Shown in pieces: positions 4,165-18,049 of a DNA stretch of 37,749 bases. The DNA lies in contig CALZJE010000031.1 in NCBI GenBank assembly GCA_945787715.1, positions 1-37,749 on the forward strand. Direction: 5' to 3'. This DNA is from an uncultured Ectothiorhodospiraceae bacterium. GTDB lineage: Bacteria; Pseudomonadota; Gammaproteobacteria; S012-40. The notes beneath the pieces are model-generated. The model was not told the origin of the DNA. It ran no database searches and was given only the letters and a program-made list of their open reading frames with translations. Positions within the stretch are counted from its first letter, which is position 1, and each line of letters starts with the position of its first letter. A program made the position numbers and the translations under genes.

Positions 4165-5206
4165 TGTAAAACTCGCTATCTCTGTAGCTCTCATGCGCAT
4201 GACGTAACATGACCATAATAATTGCCGCGACTGGTAGTGCAAGCAAAATACCGAGAAAGCCAAAAAGCTGACCACCCGCTAACACTGCAAAAATTACCGC
4301 AACGGGATGCAAACCGATTTTATCGCCCACTAATAGCGGGGTAAGAATAAAACTTTCGAAAACCTGCCCGACACCAAAAACAATGAGAACGGGGACAAGC
4401 ATAAACACATCCTGAAATTGCACAACCACTGCAATACCGGCGACGGTGACGCCAACAATTACGCCAAGATAAGGAACAAAACTCACAATACCTGCAAGCA
4501 TGCCTATCAACAATGAGAAGTCTAATCCAACCAGCCACAAGCCAACACTATAGATTGTACCCAATACAACCATAACCATTAACTGACCGCGAAGAAAGGC
4601 ACTGAGTACTGAATCAGATTCTTTTGCCAGACGCACAATCCCTGACTCATAGCGACGAGGAATCAACTCTCCAATTCTGCCTACTAAAATATCCCAATCT
4701 CTTAACAGATAAAATGTCAGCACGGGAATTAATAAAAGATTTGCCATCCAACCAACAATAGCCAAGCCAGATTTAGAAACTGTTGAAATTAGGCCAGTAG
4801 CCACGCCACTCACGTTAGAAAAATGCTCTTTTACTTGAGCTTTTAGACTATCGAGATCAAATCCAATCTCTGCAACCCCTAAATGACTCATAAGCCAGGG
4901 AAGTATGGTTGTTTGAAACCAATCGATATAGCGAGGAATAGCCTGAATGAATTGTGTTAGTTGGCGTTCAATCATTGGCAAAAGAACAAAGGTTAATGCC
5001 AGTACGACGGTGCTTAACAAGACAAAAACAACGGTGACAGATACAGCGCGAGGCGTTTTTTTATCGAGCTGATCAACAAGTGGATCTCCCATATAGGCGA
5101 GAAAAATTGCCACCAAAAAAGGCGTAAGCACAGGCGAAAGCAGATAAATTAAACTTCCGCCGAGAATCAGGCCAGCAATTAAGAACCAGCGATTTGAATC
5201 AGTCAT
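4157..5206 (-). CDS. perM: AI-2E family transporter / PerM-like permease
   Basis: A 349-residue polytopic membrane protein of the AI-2E/PerM (UPF0118) family, with around eight hydrophobic segments: a pair at the N-terminus, one near residue 60, then a soluble loop (about 90-150) rich in charged and amphipathic residues, and the rest in the C-terminal half. The FVPYLGVIVG stretch and the ALPVAAIIMVMLRH end are typical of the family. Transported substrates are poorly defined: peptides, autoinducer-2 or Na+/H+ have been proposed for different members. The start is put at ATG 5206 rather than the TTG one codon upstream. It overlaps the preceding phosphatidyltransferase by 8 bases and the following hda by 8 bases. 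A permease of this family next to hda is a recurring arrangement in gammaproteobacteria. Confidence 0.88.
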   Translation of the reverse strand: MTDSNRWFLIAGLILGGSLIYLLSPVLTPFLVAIFLAYMGDPLVDQLDKKTPRAVSVTVVFVLLSTVVLALTFVLLPMIERQLTQFIQAIPRYIDWFQTTILPWLMSHLGVAEIGFDLDSLKAQVKEHFSNVSGVATGLISTVSKSGLAIVGWMANLLLIPVLTFYLLRDWDILVGRIGELIPRRYESGIVRLAKESDSVLSAFLRGQLMVMVVLGTIYSVGLWLVGLDFSLLIGMLAGIVSFVPYLGVIVGVTVAGIAVVVQFQDVFMLVPVLIVFGVGQVFESFILTPLLVGDKIGLHPVAVIFAVLAGGQLFGFLGILLALPVAAIIMVMLRHAHESYRDSEFYNE

Positions 5207-5762
5207 CAATATTATGCTTGCGAGTTAACTGACGCGCTTTTCGACCCCAAATAATCGAGTAGCTTAAGCCGCTGAGAAAAATGGTCATTATCGTTATAAT
5301 TACAATCCAGTCAATCACCCATAATGGAATCTGAGTTATCTGTAAACTAAGAACAGCAACCACTAAAAGGATTTGCATAAAGGTGTTGAATTTACTGATA
5401 TAACTGGGTGCCAAATCGAATTTCCCAATATAGATATGAAATATCAAAGCGCCACCAACAATTATCAAATCCCTGATTATTGCTGCAATGACTAACCAGA
5501 TAGAAATCAAACCAACCTGACTCAGTGATACAAATGTAGCAATCAATAACAACTTATCTGCAATAGGATCTAGAATAGAGCCCAAGCGTGACTGCCAGCC
5601 AAAGTGCCTTGCCAGGTAACCATCGATACCATCTGAAATACCAGCAATAACAAAGAGCAAAAGAGCAGCGAGATAGTCGCCGTGCAGAATCAGCGCAACA
5701 ACAGGTGCAACTAGTAAGATACGGATGGCGCTGATTAGGTTAGGTATATCTCTAAACTTCAT
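5199..5762 (-). CDS. CDP-alcohol phosphatidyltransferase family protein (PgsA-like)
   Basis: An integral membrane enzyme of 187 residues with the complete CDP-alcohol phosphotransferase signature, D-G-x2-A-R-x8-G-x3-D-x3-D: D47, G48, A51, R52, G61, D65 and D69. Such enzymes displace CMP from CDP-diacylglycerol using an alcohol. Length and the opening KFRDIPNLISAIRILL fit the phosphatidylglycerophosphate synthase group, so the likely acceptor is glycerol-3-phosphate, but a second PgsA elsewhere (usually next to uvrC) is common and this could be a paralogue with another acceptor. Six hydrophobic helices are visible. It overlaps the DUF2066 gene upstream by 4 bases (ATGA) and the permease downstream. 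I leave the symbol empty because substrate cannot be read from sequence. Confidence 0.86.
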   Translation of the reverse strand: MKFRDIPNLISAIRILLVAPVVALILHGDYLAALLLFVIAGISDGIDGYLARHFGWQSRLGSILDPIADKLLLIATFVSLSQVGLISIWLVIAAIIRDLIIVGGALIFHIYIGKFDLAPSYISKFNTFMQILLVVAVLSLQITQIPLWVIDWIVIITIMTIFLSGLSYSIIWGRKARQLTRKHNIDD

Positions 5763-6919
5763 GGCATTAGTCGGTAATTGAAACGACTCTCCGGCAAATC
5801 GATAGCAAATGGGTCTTCAACTTCAACTAAAACCTTGCTTAATGAGATAGCTTGCTTAAGCGCGTTTTTACTTCCCCGCAAATCTAGTTGATAGATTACT
5901 TCATTCATCTGAACTTGAGAAACAAATACTTTTTTAATTGCTGATAGTGAAGAAAGGTAACGACTGACTTTGTCATAATCCGCTAGATTATTCACATCGG
6001 ATATGGTGATTAATGTGCTGTTTTCATTGCCGCTTGTAGGAACGTGAGCGTAGTGTTCAGCTAATTTATCAGCGAGATAATCAATACCTTCTTGTATCGC
6101 AGTATCCTGATCAGGAGCGCTACTACGCCATTGCAACTCCTCACTATCTTGATAAAAACTCCAACGACTCTCCCAAATACCAAATGGATCCTGATATAAA
6201 CGCGCAGCAACAATGGCTTCCGGCTGATAGCGCTCTGATGCACTAATAACAGAGTCTTTAAAACCGCCCCAAACGTCTGTCACATTTAGGTTAATTTGAT
6301 CTTCCAAATCCAATAATGGATAGACAATAGGTACGCCTCGCTTGTAAGCATATTTACTCATGTATTCTAAAAGCGGCAGTGATTCAGATGAATCTATCAA
6401 ACGTCTTGAATTTTGATCTTGTACCGCAAGCCATACTAAAGTCGCTGGTCGAGTTTTACCCCACACAGGCAGTTTGCTTCTCCACAAACTATTTTTCACT
6501 GCTTTTTCATCAAATGATATGATTAAATTCTGTTCAGGCTGAGGCTCTTCCGCTTCTATGGCAACTGACACCGCAGGCATATTTTTAATTTCGGTATCAA
6601 AACCCTGCTCATCTACAGCTCCCACTGCATCCGATTCCAGGTTTTCAGTCGTTTTTTTCTCAATCGCTTCATACCGAAAACTTCGAATATATCTATGTGA
6701 TTTTTTGAGAAGTGCTTGTCCCTCTTCTAACTCCCCAATGTCTTTTTTACCTGTCACTTTGATCAAGAGTTCTTCAAATGCTTTTGTAATTGCTTCTTTT
6801 CGCTCTTTGCTACTTTGAGAATATACCGGGATAGAAATCTCATAGAGCTTTTTCACGGTCGTGCCGAAAGCCGACGAACAAATCATTATTAATATGATTG
6901 AAAATAGAAATTTATTCAT
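5759..6919 (-). CDS. DUF2066 domain-containing exported protein
   Basis: The start at 6919 gives a 386-residue protein that begins with a clean signal peptide (MNKFLFSIILIMICSSAFG) followed by TTVKKLYEISIPVYSQSSKER. The lysine-rich segment with FEELLIKVTGKKDIGEL is characteristic of DUF2066, a family of unknown function, predicted periplasmic, usually encoded beside purM. An in-frame ATG 20 codons upstream would place extra polar residues before the signal peptide, so I reject it; no convincing ribosome binding site decides the matter. A region around residues 70-100 is Glu/Asp-rich and probably disordered. It is the first gene of the minus-strand cluster reaching rep and diverges from purM across about 370 bases. 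No biochemical role is known to me. Confidence 0.85.
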   Translation of the reverse strand: MNKFLFSIILIMICSSAFGTTVKKLYEISIPVYSQSSKERKEAITKAFEELLIKVTGKKDIGELEEGQALLKKSHRYIRSFRYEAIEKKTTENLESDAVGAVDEQGFDTEIKNMPAVSVAIEAEEPQPEQNLIISFDEKAVKNSLWRSKLPVWGKTRPATLVWLAVQDQNSRRLIDSSESLPLLEYMSKYAYKRGVPIVYPLLDLEDQINLNVTDVWGGFKDSVISASERYQPEAIVAARLYQDPFGIWESRWSFYQDSEELQWRSSAPDQDTAIQEGIDYLADKLAEHYAHVPTSGNENSTLITISDVNNLADYDKVSRYLSSLSAIKKVFVSQVQMNEVIYQLDLRGSKNALKQAISLSKVLVEVEDPFAIDLPESRFNYRLMP

Positions 6920-12629: not shown

Positions 12630-15467
12630 TTAAAGACGTGCTAGCGCCTTGTTTAAGCTATCTTCCAGGCGTTTCTTGTATTTCATGTATTCATGGGTAG
12701 GGATAATATTTGACCCTTTACTGTTAATGACTTCCGGTGCCAGTTTCAAATCCGCAATATAGATATAATATTTTTCTTTATTTTTTCGTTTGCCAACCAC
12801 GTACTGAGCGATTTCAGTAAAGATCTTACTACCCCACTCCGCTGAGTTAAATTCAGTATTATCACAGTAAAAAGTGAATACAGCTCTATTTTCAACGACT
12901 TCACCAATCACCTGAATACCATACTTTTTCGACACATCAATTTCGGGTAATTTTAGAAGTTTTGTGCCGTACACAAAACCACTCTTAGTGAGTTTATAGG
13001 CTTCCAATTGACAATTTATTTGCTCCACATATATTTCAGTATCCACAAGCTCCTCATGTAGTACTGTGCGCTGCTCAAGTAATGTAGAAAAGAACATCAA
13101 CAAGTGTCCTAAAATTTTATCAGAACTATCGAGTGGGAATTTTTGAAGAAATAACGCACCCATCTCATCTATGACAAAAGTATGTATTCCATCTTTTTCA
13201 GCAAAAAAGAATATTTGAATAATCCCTGCTTTGTTTGCTGAATAAATTGTGGGATATGGTGATGTTTGCAAGACGTAAGGATCAAATTCCACCGTGCGAA
13301 AATAGCCCACCGATGCTCCCAAGCTATCCAGCATCTCCTTTTGGGTACTAAACAATTCAAACTGAAACCGGTGATCGACATAAGAAATTACAAAATATTG
13401 GCGAAATGCCTCAAAAACGTAACAAGATTCATAGGCCTGACTAGTGGTAAAACAGTGCAAAGATGATTTAAACAACTTAGTAAGCCGCTTACTTAGAACA
13501 TGAGACATTTGATTGTCAAAGCTCACCACTTCAGGCTGATCTATTGCTGTTTTTTTATTAAGTTTGTGTGCCGGTACATATGTATCCAATAAAGCACACA
13601 ACCACTGAGCGATACCACTCCCACCCACATATTTGAAAACAAAAATTTCTTTCCAACTAGTAATGAAAAAATGCTCCAGTGATCGGATAGCACCATCGCC
13701 CTCACTACCATAGTTAAGTACGTCAATTTCGCCGGATACAAGTTGCTTGCTCAATGTTCCTGTTAAATCCACATTGCTTCCACGCCCAATATTCAGAAAT
13801 ACGATACTACGTTGCAGAAATGCGGGATCCATCAAATCCTGACTCTCTGGTGAAAATACATTGAAACCTTCAGTTAATTCAGAAAACTTATCCAAAATAC
13901 TATTGAGTTCGCTATTTCCTACATCTGAACCCGGTGCATAAAGGAGCTTTTGAGTATTATGACCAAACAACTGATTGAAATAAGCCCATGCAATTAACTC
14001 GATAAGGCCATAAGCCATTTTCAGTGGCTTTCTATTTTTAAACTGCTCACCGACTACCTTTCCTCGGTAGAGTCGCCAATGCTCTTTTTTGTCTTGGCTA
14101 CGCAATAACATTACCGTAACGCTATCTTCTGCGAGCGAGTCTACAATACCGCGATTAAAAATTTCGATCTTCCCTGCTTTTCGATCAAATACTGAGTATA
14201 ATTTTCGCCCTAGTGTGCTTAAATCTCGCTGTTTGATTAACTGCCTTGTGGCATTTTCCTTTCCAAAACGAGAGATAACCCCATAGCTTTTTGTTAAATA
14301 CATAACCAGTAAATTTCGCTCTTGGGCGACATCTTCAAGCTTCCAGTTTTTTATATTATCTAGATGGGCAATTTGTAGCGACTCCCATTTCCAAGTGTCG
14401 ACGAGTGTCCTAATGCATTCCTTTCTCCAGTTTTCAGGCTCGTTTTTATTGCTTAGTGGCAAATCAAGCTTAAGATAAAAGCATCGCCGTATAACTTCCA
14501 AACGTTGTTCATCTTCACGTGATTTTAAATAGCGTTCAATACGTTTGAGCATCAAGAGATAGGGATCTAATAACTCAGGATCAAGAATGTCATCATAAAT
14601 TTTCTGTTTGAATTCTGCGGATAAAGGAATACTTTCAGGATGCTTATCAGCATAAGCCTCCATCAAAGTAATTTTCAATGCTGATTTGTGAGGCGAGTCG
14701 ATACCTTTATAAATCTGCCATACTGCCGCGCCAAAAAACTCTCCATTGGGAATGTCAGGCAAGGCACCGAAGTCGACCACTTCAGACTTCAAAACAACTT
14801 CTGATTTTATCAGCTTTTTTCGAACACTTTCATACGAGGCCTCTTGAGCGGGTGGCACATACCACCAAAAAGGGATTTTACCTGCCACCCAAACACTAGT
14901 GCGATAAAATTCATCGAGCAAGAGTAGATGCTGGGCAGTACCACTACTCTCCTTAGACAGTTTAGAAACTTTACCTTGTTTGAAAGCGACTGCATTCATC
15001 AGAAAAAAGTGGACTTCCATTCCCATACTATCAAACCAACGTTCGATACGAATCGCTTTTTTTTGTAATCTCTTTAATTTTTCACGCTCAAGCTTAGGGG
15101 AGTAACAAAGCCAAATATCGAAGTCACTTTTTTTATTAAAAGCCACTGTTCCACAGCTACCCATGAGAAACATAGCCTCGATTTCGGTGTTCTTCACCCC
15201 TAATCGCTGAAAATCAAATCCTCGCCACAATGTTTTTGCGTAATTGATAATGGAGTCTGGAGGGATATACCCAAACACTCCAGATGCTGTTTGATCATCC
15301 ACATAACCCGGCAATATGGAATTGTTAACATGAAACAATAACGGCAAAACATCGAGCAAATCTTTGTTTTTGCTCGGCATTAGTTTTTGAGTGCGTTCAA
15401 GTCGTTCTTTATTGACACGTAAGAAGCGCTCTCTAATAATATCTGTTTGTAAGCTCTCTTTAACCAT
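12630..15467 (-). CDS. cyaA: Class I adenylate cyclase
   Basis: CyaA makes cAMP from ATP. This 945-residue protein shows the enterobacterial class I architecture: an N-terminal catalytic nucleotidyltransferase-type domain (about 1-530) and a C-terminal regulatory region. Catalytic-site features are G103-S104 and the metal-binding pair D115/D117 in the segment LMGSCGTVAF to KKSDFDIWL. Later PFWWYVPP and GEFFGAAVWQIYKGIDSPHKSALKI are strongly conserved class I segments. It is about 100 residues longer than E. coli CyaA, closer to Pseudomonas-type enzymes. The C-terminal half does not show a clear histidine phosphorylation motif that I can name. Transcription presumably starts in the 290-base gap it shares with the divergent GGDEF gene. 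No CRP-like palindrome is obvious there. Confidence 0.94.
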   Translation of the reverse strand: MVKESLQTDIIRERFLRVNKERLERTQKLMPSKNKDLLDVLPLLFHVNNSILPGYVDDQTASGVFGYIPPDSIINYAKTLWRGFDFQRLGVKNTEIEAMFLMGSCGTVAFNKKSDFDIWLCYSPKLEREKLKRLQKKAIRIERWFDSMGMEVHFFLMNAVAFKQGKVSKLSKESSGTAQHLLLLDEFYRTSVWVAGKIPFWWYVPPAQEASYESVRKKLIKSEVVLKSEVVDFGALPDIPNGEFFGAAVWQIYKGIDSPHKSALKITLMEAYADKHPESIPLSAEFKQKIYDDILDPELLDPYLLMLKRIERYLKSREDEQRLEVIRRCFYLKLDLPLSNKNEPENWRKECIRTLVDTWKWESLQIAHLDNIKNWKLEDVAQERNLLVMYLTKSYGVISRFGKENATRQLIKQRDLSTLGRKLYSVFDRKAGKIEIFNRGIVDSLAEDSVTVMLLRSQDKKEHWRLYRGKVVGEQFKNRKPLKMAYGLIELIAWAYFNQLFGHNTQKLLYAPGSDVGNSELNSILDKFSELTEGFNVFSPESQDLMDPAFLQRSIVFLNIGRGSNVDLTGTLSKQLVSGEIDVLNYGSEGDGAIRSLEHFFITSWKEIFVFKYVGGSGIAQWLCALLDTYVPAHKLNKKTAIDQPEVVSFDNQMSHVLSKRLTKLFKSSLHCFTTSQAYESCYVFEAFRQYFVISYVDHRFQFELFSTQKEMLDSLGASVGYFRTVEFDPYVLQTSPYPTIYSANKAGIIQIFFFAEKDGIHTFVIDEMGALFLQKFPLDSSDKILGHLLMFFSTLLEQRTVLHEELVDTEIYVEQINCQLEAYKLTKSGFVYGTKLLKLPEIDVSKKYGIQVIGEVVENRAVFTFYCDNTEFNSAEWGSKIFTEIAQYVVGKRKNKEKYYIYIADLKLAPEVINSKGSNIIPTHEYMKYKKRLEDSLNKALARL

Positions 15468-15757
15468 ACGATAAGAAATGAATCATTAGCAATATATTTT
15501 AGCCGTAATATCAGTTCTATTATCAACGGCATTATCTCTTTATTACTTGATTATTAGAAAAGCTCCAAAATCATCGCCTGGCATCAAATATGTATTAGCT
15601 TATCAACTAAAAACTAACGTAAGAGACTATGCCTTTAACAAGTCTTTTCAACGAGGGGATACTTAATATTGGACAGATATATGCTCCATTTGAAAAACCT
15701 CCCGTAAGTTTTTAAGATGCTAACGCTATTTAGTCCACGTCCAGAGATCAAAATATT

Positions 15758-16603
15758 ATGCAAAATTTAAATATAGAACTTGCTACATCAGCGCTGGATA
15801 TGTCTCCTGTGGGAGTACTGATATTCGATAAAGAAAACGTCATTCAGTGGACAAACCCCACCATGTGTGAATTTCTTGGCGCCCCAAGCCCCGAAATCAT
15901 CAATTTAAGTTTCACAGATCTAACGACCCGATATTTAGATGGCTTTTCAGATCATCCTGATTTATGGAAGGTATCGAATGTTATCGATAGACAAACTCGC
16001 TGGCTAATTACTGTCGATAATCCAAAAACTGATTCCAAGGGCAATACAATCCGTTATTTTTCCGATGTTTCTGAAATCATGAAATTAAAAACCGAATGTA
16101 GAAACTTAAAAGATCAATTAGATAACGTGAGTACCGCAGACACACTTACTGGCCTGCTAAACAAACGCTCATTAATGCAAGCATTAGAACCTCAAGTATC
16201 TCGTAGCCGACGATACAGTAATCCGCTATCCATCATTGTCATGCAGATCGATAACTTCAAAGCCCATGCAAAAAATGTCACACCGGTCACTGATCAAGTT
16301 TTAACGTCTGTCAGTTTTTATCTTCGAGATCAAATGCGCTGGGTGGATTTGGTAGGGCGAACAGGGGATAGTGAGTTTACGCTGATACTGCCTGAAACCA
16401 GTGAAGAAGATGCTAAAAAGCTCGCTTCTAAAATTGAAGCACGTTTACAAAATTTAAGTTTGCCAGACTCGCCCGAGGTCATGATCTCTGTAAACGCCAA
16501 ATACGGCATTGCAGCGTGGGAAAAAGGTGATGACACCAGCATGTTACTTAAGAAAGTGAAAGAAGACATGACTGAATCATCGAGTAACGTCGCTGTTGGC
16601 TAA
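15758..16603 (+). CDS. PAS-GGDEF protein with degenerate catalytic site
   Basis: A soluble 281-residue protein: a PAS-like sensor (about 8-105; LDMSPVGVLIFDKENVIQWT, then SDVSEI), a short coiled linker (about 107-125) and a GGDEF fold starting at D128 (DTLTGLLNKR). In the GGDEF domain IDNFK is present, but the usual NDxxGHxxGD segment reads KNVTPVTDQ and the signature is G203-D204-S205-E206-F207 instead of GG(D/E)EF, so the metal-binding acidic residue is Ser and the second Gly is Asp. Diguanylate cyclase activity is therefore doubtful. In contrast the RxxD product-binding motif is intact (R194-W-V-D197), five residues before the signature, the standard spacing. It is better read as a possible c-di-GMP receptor or scaffold. 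It diverges from cyaA and converges with argH across a strong terminator. Confidence 0.82.
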   Translation: MQNLNIELATSALDMSPVGVLIFDKENVIQWTNPTMCEFLGAPSPEIINLSFTDLTTRYLDGFSDHPDLWKVSNVIDRQTRWLITVDNPKTDSKGNTIRYFSDVSEIMKLKTECRNLKDQLDNVSTADTLTGLLNKRSLMQALEPQVSRSRRYSNPLSIIVMQIDNFKAHAKNVTPVTDQVLTSVSFYLRDQMRWVDLVGRTGDSEFTLILPETSEEDAKKLASKIEARLQNLSLPDSPEVMISVNAKYGIAAWEKGDDTSMLLKKVKEDMTESSSNVAVG

Positions 16604-16621
16604 TGTAACAATGAAAAAGCA

Positions 16622-16662
16622 TAGCTCGTAGAATCGCTTTTTAATTCTACGAGCTACTTTTT
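16622..16662. terminator. Bidirectional rho-independent terminator between GGDEF gene and argH
   Basis: A 13-bp perfect stem (TAGCTCGTAGAAT / ATTCTACGAGCTA, loop 9 bases) is followed by CTTTTT on the plus strand and, on the minus strand, by GCTTTTTC. The T run on the plus side reaches the argH stop codon. It can serve both convergent genes. Confidence 0.85.
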
Positions 16663-18049
16663 AAGCTATACGCTGGCGTGCTCTGCTTATCGCTTGCTCG
16701 ACTTGATTCGGCGCTGTTCCACCAAAATGATCACGTGCCGCACAGGATCCTTCCGGTGTAAGTACAAGATAGATATCCTCTTCTATAATTGCTGAAAACT
16801 GTTGCAACTCACCGAGTGACATCTCCCCAAGGTCTTTCTCATTATCTATTCCATAGCGCACTGCTTTTCCGACAATTTCGTGTGAATCTCGAAAGGGAAT
16901 TCCTTTCTTCACTAAATAATCCGCTAAATCAGTTGCCGTAGAAAAACCTTTCATGGCCGCAGCCCGCATGTTTTCTCGCTTAACTTTCACGGTTGGTATC
17001 ATGTCCGCAAATACTCTTAGCGAAGCCTTCAAGGTATCAATGCTATCGAATAAGGGTTCTTTGTCTTCTTGATTATCTTTGTTATAAGCAAACGGCTGGG
17101 ATTTCATCAATGTTAGCATCGCAACCAGGTTGCCATTGGTTCGCCCTGCTTTACCTCGAATCAGTTCTGGTACGTCTGGATTTTTCTTTTGCGGCATTAT
17201 TGAAGAGCCAGTGCAGAAACTATCGCCCATTTCTATGAAATCAAACTGTTGAGAAACCCATAAAACGAGCTCTTCTGAATATCGTGACAAATGTGTCATC
17301 ACTTGCGCCGCAACAAAACAGAACTCCAAAATAAAATCACGATCACTCACCGCATCTAGCGAATTTTCCGCTACTTTTTCAAATTCCAATAATTTTGCAG
17401 TAAAATGTCGATCAATAGGATAAGTGGTTCCGGCTAATGCTGCTGCACCAAGTGGTAAAACATTGACACGTTTACGGCAATCTTGCAGTCGTTCTGCATC
17501 TCTTTGCAGGTTTTCAAACCATGCAAGCATATGATGACCAAAGCTAATAGGCTGAGCAACTTGTAAATGTGTGAAACCAGGAAGGATGGTATTAACTTCT
17601 CGTTCAGCCAAATCAATCAATGCGTTTTGTAATCTCTTCAGCTCTATCGCTATTTCATCAATTTCATCACGCAGATAAAGTCGCATATCGGTTGCAACTT
17701 GATCATTTCTTGATCGCCCTGTATGAAGTTTCTTCCCAGCATCACCAATTTTTTTCGTCAAGCGCGATTCGATATTCATATGAATATCTTCAAGCGCAAT
17801 TGACCATTCAAACTCACCGGCTTCGATTTCCGCTTGAACTTGATCCAATCCTTGGATTATGGAATTCTTCTCATCATCCGTCAGCACTCCCACTTTGCTC
17901 AACATAGTCGCATGAGCAATTGAACCACGAATATCTTGTTTATACATTCGTCGATCAAATTCAACTGACGCGGTGAAGGCTTCAACAAAAACATCTGTCG
18001 CTTCGGTGAAACGACCACCCCAGGGTTTTACAACACTTTTATCATTCAT
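16661..18049 (-). CDS. argH: Argininosuccinate lyase
   Basis: ArgH splits argininosuccinate into arginine and fumarate. The 462 residues include the fumarase/aspartase superfamily signature [12 protein letters not shown] (about residues 282-293), the substrate-binding [14 protein letters not shown] and the [15 protein letters not shown] motif. N-terminal [23 protein letters not shown] is typical. Start at ATG 18049; no Shine-Dalgarno sequence is visible and the predicted promoter leaves a leader of only about 15 bases. It is divergent from hemC, an arrangement shared with Pseudomonas except that the algZ/algR pair found there is absent here. Confidence 0.97.

Follow-up and report, generated by a model that had tools for sequence, protein, structure and literature searches.

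By analogy, the nearest mechanistic precedent for the gene considered here is PopA of Caulobacter crescentus, which the available excerpts of PMC12564702 describe as a GGDEF protein whose active site is degenerate and whose RxxD motif is retained, and which acts as a c-di-GMP effector and not as a cyclase. The GGDEF fold, the lost catalytic signature and the retained RxxD are what it shares with the group of proteins described below, here called the RWxD family. In those excerpts PopA is a PleD-paralogous response regulator of cell-cycle control, whereas RWxD family members have a PAS input, are linked to cyaA or crp, and are predicted to bind c-di-GMP. The fold and the inhibitory-site residues are likewise common to the family and to PleD and DgcR, but the latter two, according to the portions available of PMC7288161 and PMC8041772, are active, product-inhibited cyclases with receiver domains, and in the family the metal and guanine residues are lost along with GG(D/E)EF. 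SiaD (NF038266) is the best NCBIfam match of the protein, at 97.1 bits far below the cut-off of 290, and no named NCBIfam equivalog in the scan matched the protein at its cut-off; SiaD is also the best PDB match of the family profile (7e6g), with its signature intact in the alignment. YybT/GdpP-type degenerate GGDEF proteins carry a DHH-type phosphodiesterase domain. Unlike them, the present protein has no DHH-type domain detectable by Pfam scan, and its match to PAS_GdpP, at 26.3 bits, is below the cut-off of 27; its Pfam matches are to PAS and GGDEF only. The lack of an EAL domain sets it apart also from the CC3396 kind of GTP-sensing degenerate GGDEF protein, in which, in the portion available of PMC7288161, GTP activates a neighbouring EAL domain.

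Two described systems join c-di-GMP to cAMP. In P. putida, as excerpts of PMC8125075 have it, c-di-GMP lowers cAMP via FleQ on the cyaA promoter, so that the same two messengers meet at cyaA transcription; the present case differs in having a distinct receptor-like protein, whose gene lies by cyaA or close to crp. Bd1971, a cAMP-sensing phosphodiesterase, involves the same messengers in the direction from cAMP to c-di-GMP (PMC6717892, in the part available). While dead-GGDEF receptors are already known, the RWxD family and its linkage to cyaA and crp appear undescribed: no description of the family, its hallmark or this linkage was found among the papers listed by full-text searches of the open PMC literature, which lacks most subscription papers. 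The reading favoured here, from sequence comparison, is that the gene encodes a cyclase-dead c-di-GMP receptor whose output lies in cAMP signalling, and taken as a whole it is moderately probable.

The window, as the whole 37,749-nucleotide stretch of DNA analysed is called here, carries the gene on its forward strand at 15758..16603, an ORF with an ATG start that encodes a PAS-GGDEF protein of 281 amino acids and for which orthologues were found. A PAS-like domain takes up approximately residues 11-103 (15788..16066, forward strand); the Pfam matches PAS_8 (25.6 bits against a cut-off of 21.8) and PAS (23.1 against 22.6), which are barely above threshold, begin at residues 11-13, and the strands and helices of an AlphaFold2 model that drew on the window protein plus 79 relatives (mean pLDDT 92.2) cover residues 18-103. 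A linker helix follows in the model at residues 105-124 (16070..16129, forward strand), and then a degenerate GGDEF domain at residues 126-274 (16133..16579, forward strand), which matches PF00990 with 92.4 bits against a cut-off of 23.8. The best structural match of this C-terminal domain among the matches listed is PleD, 2v0n, with a Z score of 20.4 and an rmsd of 2.8 for 151 residues, over residues 124-278. On the other side of a 290 bp intergenic region (15468..15757) is the divergent reverse-strand ORF 12630..15467, which we take to be cyaA, the class I adenylate cyclase gene, from its sequence and from a PF01295 match of 365.3 bits; the preliminary description had rightly placed the two opposite each other. 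Downstream the convergent ORF at 16661..18049, reverse strand, is presumably argH, a name assigned by reading its sequence, and many loci keep it adjacent to the gene. Between the two is a hairpin of 15 pairs (16621..16657, reverse strand), terminator-like on the argH strand; the scan for terminator-like sites gave four, against 1.1 expected. A promoter scan gave four sites where 4.2 were expected, and a CRP-box search of the window gave 11 matches where 19 were expected, with none in 15468-15757.

The signature of the GGDEF domain reads G203-D-S-E-F207 (16364..16378, forward strand) in place of GG(D/E)EF, the NDxxGHxxGD segment is missing, and five residues ahead of the signature is R194-W-V-D197 (16337..16348, forward strand), the RxxD of the primary inhibitory site with a tryptophan that is invariant in the family. 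These features, from which the preliminary description started, are all borne out in the ORF. On alignment to DgcR (6zxm), Q163 stands at the first Asp of DID, A171 at the Asn of ND and S205 at the first Glu of GGEEF; D165, D179, R194 and D197 are retained and E206 is also present. The protein is predicted to be unable to make c-di-GMP. As to the inhibitory site, the portion available of PMC7288161 gives the PleD residues as R359, D362 and R390 together with R313 from a neighbour, and the c-di-GMP contacts of DgcR, as excerpts of PMC8041772 report them, align with the inhibitory-site residues of the family. The phmmer alignment to 6zxm pairs R194 and D197 with DgcR R206 and D209 and, within the R149-S-R-R152-Y153 stretch that holds the putative arginines of the secondary half-site (16202..16216, forward strand), R152 with R163; by eye it also pairs K225 (16430..16432, forward strand) with R237. 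The structural match to PleD gives ends only, and its numbering was counted onward by hand from the start of the match, where residue 124 is PleD 288; with one inserted residue, R149, R194, D197 and K225 fall on PleD 313, 359, 362 and 390. From the DgcR alignment and the PleD numbering together, both inhibitory half-sites appear to survive.

How much this says about a lone protein was judged against the other GGDEF domains of the same genome, for which the background consists of those 30 of its 40 GGDEF matches that have loci. RxxD is present in 27 of the 30, an Arg at position 149 in 13 and a Lys or Arg at position 225 in 21, with all of these jointly in 10. RxxD in one protein was consequently rejected as evidence; it is unremarkable, the preliminary description had leaned on it too heavily, and orthologues were needed as the test.

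Loci found through motif patterns ([QLE]VSRSRRYxN or DQ[LM]RW[VA]Dx[IV], the best 80 of 187) make conservation counts partly circular, and so a set found by profile was used instead. The profile, built from an alignment of 22 relatives (A1), was searched against 369 genomes belonging to the same class, and 81 of these had a match of at least 150 bits. One of the matching proteins, L180, has a canonical GGEEF and was not counted, so that the family numbers 81 members, from 80 genomes with 38 gammaproteobacterial family codes. Besides L180, the rows kept out of the count were L160 and L162, which duplicate L171 and L181, and L225 and L226, which score below 150 bits and both retain RWAD. Although A1 itself also rewards the motifs, the members score from approximately 150 to 385 bits, a range in which a member lacking one motif should still be picked up.

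Neither GG(D/E)EF nor ND..G[HN]..GD occurs in any of the 81 members, while R194, W195, D197 and R152 are each present in all 81, R149 in 79, and a Lys (76) or Arg (3) at position 225 in 79; the five inhibitory-site residues occur jointly in 77. By weighted entropy over the 81 members the inhibitory-site columns rank 2, 4, 6, 11 and 16 of 164 in conservation and the metal, guanine and GGDE columns 81-161, the exception among active-site columns being the signature Phe (F207; 68 of 81, rank 22). An RxxD that is invariant amid dissolved active-site columns is not what the background looks like, and by these sequence criteria the inhibitory site is kept by selection and the active site let go. The preliminary description had asked whether a lost cyclase site and a retained RxxD are conserved together in orthologues, which they are across the family, and an intact GGDEF in most relatives, which would have counted against its reading, is found in none of the 81, with only the canonical L180 having passed the score. 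Residual, weak diguanylate cyclase activity, or GTP sensing through the active-site side, would be in keeping with the D165, D179 and E206 of the window protein and with the frequent signature Phe, yet the variation at the metal and guanine positions, the uniform absence of GG(D/E)EF and the lack of an EAL domain for GTP to regulate make it highly improbable.

W195 is found in none of the 30 other GGDEF domains of the window's genome, and RWxD is in that sense the hallmark of the family. LPET, R151, Y153 and W254 are as fixed as the inhibitory site, and these residues, like W195, have no known role in c-di-GMP binding. They could instead mean that the fixed Arg/Trp/Asp face is a surface for binding protein, or a pocket for another nucleotide, and not a c-di-GMP site. 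A mere protein surface does not predict that both PleD/DgcR half-sites would be kept jointly in 77 of 81 members, and this alternative is quite unlikely; that the RWxD family proteins are c-di-GMP receptors is an interpretation held with good confidence. The W254-E-K-G-D-D259 motif (16517..16534, forward strand), with W254 and G257 invariant in alignments A1 and A2, belongs to a WxKGDD turn that, with the LPET strand, is conserved family-wide, and the two are a candidate partner-binding surface. For the PAS domain the preliminary description had proposed sensing of a small molecule or a redox signal; the PAS positions conserved in at least 80% of 90 relatives include neither His nor Cys, the proposal finds no backing there, and no other observation pointed to a ligand. 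The extracted translation of one locus, L065, contains a stop codon; this locus was excluded from A2 but retained among the loci used for the PAS positions and for the neighbour count of the pattern scan given below.

Class I adenylate cyclase was searched for as PF01295 in the same 369 genomes, with presence set at 200 bits or more. It is present in 70 of the 81 profile-positive genomes (that of L180 included) as against 32 of the 288 others, in raw counts that ignore phylogeny; by family code, cyaA-bearing codes are 35 of 38 against 14 of approximately 140, where the codes were entered by hand and 178, the highest code seen, is taken as their total. The gene is within 4 kb of cyaA in 56 of the 71 genomes that have both, a number that includes G098, whose cyaA scores 102 bits and where approximately 45 bp separate the gene (L196) from the first ATG of the cyaA frame. 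In 40 of the 56 it is divergent from cyaA and in 16 it is upstream on the same strand. The independent motif-pattern scan of named genomes, again for the best 80 of 187 loci, nearly all of them titled as MAGs from Gammaproteobacteria or from unplaced Proteobacteria, gave a cyaA neighbour in 67 of 80. In 64 of these cyaA is upstream and divergent with a median gap of 279 bp and a largest of 1,090, and in three it follows on the same strand with estimated gaps of 48-67 bp; the remaining 13 loci have no cyaA within the stretch examined, some of them ending at contig ends.

Among the 15 unlinked genomes, 10 have a CRP/Vfr relative one gene away, 58-100% identical to the protein at L189, and a convergent osmC-like gene between it and the PAS-GGDEF gene; crp, vfr and osmC are what we take these genes to be from their sequences. 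Loci of one clade with the gene by crp/vfr and an osmC-like gene are L184-L188, L189-L191, L193, L181 and L073. In a quick tree with some long branches the ten rows form one clade (SH-aLRT 97) beside the window's own group, so the linkage counts as one event, apparently a single transfer of the gene from the side of one cAMP gene to that of another. The other five genomes are G045, with no cyaA in the 5 kb upstream and a contig end just downstream; G002, with cyaA approximately 16 kb distant on the same contig; G272, with a contig end approximately 0.4 kb downstream of the gene; and G085 and G207, with cyaA located elsewhere. The window's genome itself encodes two CRP/Vfr-like proteins, which are 61% and 52% identical to the one at L188, and, besides the class I cyaA, five class III cyclase domains, these seven being on contigs C14, C81, C111, C26, C67, C74 and C50.

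PF01295 was not found in nine of the 80 member genomes, and the gene is therefore not confined to genomes bearing cyaA. All nine have CRP/Vfr relatives (a partial one in G160) and class III cyclase domains, from which a cAMP pathway may still be present, keeping in mind that the class III domains are unspecific; in six of the nine the gene is still near argH. Conversely 32 genomes have cyaA without a member above 150 bits, though two of them, G013 and G261, hold weaker members near it. No member is beside cyaA in the 20 of these 32 that were read, G013 and G261 being outside the 20, and in eight of the 20 argH and cyaA lie within 0.9 kb of each other with no such gene beside them. As the argH-cyaA block persists without the gene, its proximity to cyaA may be partly passive, and this, the six genomes just mentioned and the single-clade origin of the crp linkage are the points in favour of a c-di-GMP receptor with an output unrelated to cAMP, held in an argH-cyaA-lysA block that is rarely broken and moved next to crp by chance. 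That account is unlikely: the gene is beside cyaA in both orientations, in L041, L091, L096, L098 and L106 it remains by cyaA even with argH 2-4 kb off, and its sole clear relocation ended by crp. For the favoured reading, that the output lies in the cAMP pathway is reasonably probable; the earlier suggestion of an effect on cAMP gains support from the linkage to cyaA and, in one clade, to crp, the effect itself being what we infer from it.

A mechanism can be proposed on the model of PleD and DgcR. The soluble PAS-GGDEF protein probably binds c-di-GMP at the former product-inhibition site. The PAS domain and linker helix would hold a dimer, with its two GGDEF domains freed from the catalytic orientation, and a c-di-GMP dimer would bridge the RxxD and K225 of one GGDEF domain to the VSRSRRY arginines of another, locking the inhibitory faces together and clamping the dimer in one state. 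The clamp would alter a surface that meets CyaA or another component of cAMP signalling, the simplest version being contact with the adjacent CyaA; such direct contact is plausible, with confidence short of that for a cAMP output in general. Damping, with high c-di-GMP giving less cAMP, is a guess at the sign of the effect, made because c-di-GMP lowers cAMP in P. putida through FleQ. Glucose-PTS EIIA sets CyaA activity in E. coli. A more tentative version still makes the protein a regulatory subunit dedicated to class I adenylate cyclase and responsive to c-di-GMP, so that c-di-GMP would act on cAMP directly and post-translationally in bacteria that have no glucose-PTS EIIA; if true, class I adenylate cyclases would have a control input where EIIA-Glc is lacking. 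EIIA (PF00358) reaches its cut-off in seven of the 369 genomes and in none of the 80 member genomes (G186 has a partial match below cut-off), but it is too rare in the sample for its absence from members to be evidence by itself. A receptor-like family in 38 family codes, mostly by cyaA and in one clade close to crp, would make a direct protein-level link between c-di-GMP and cAMP testable, and it is also a clear natural case of selection acting on the inhibitory site of a GGDEF domain and not on its active site.

Several individual loci have features of their own. Two members, L200 and L223, are present in G166, with only L223 near cyaA. The stretch of L189-L191 also holds genes that resemble, as we take it, trpG, trpD and trpC. 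In L176, L178 and L179 (G354, G160 and G266) argH and lysA flank the gene and no cyaA is present there, a Cys replaces W254 (THCQKND and similar) and LPET reads LQET. The L180 protein of G226 (ORF 4416-5840), with its canonical GGEEF, has READ instead of RWxD and scores 153 bits against the family profile; it may be near the active ancestor of the RWxD family.
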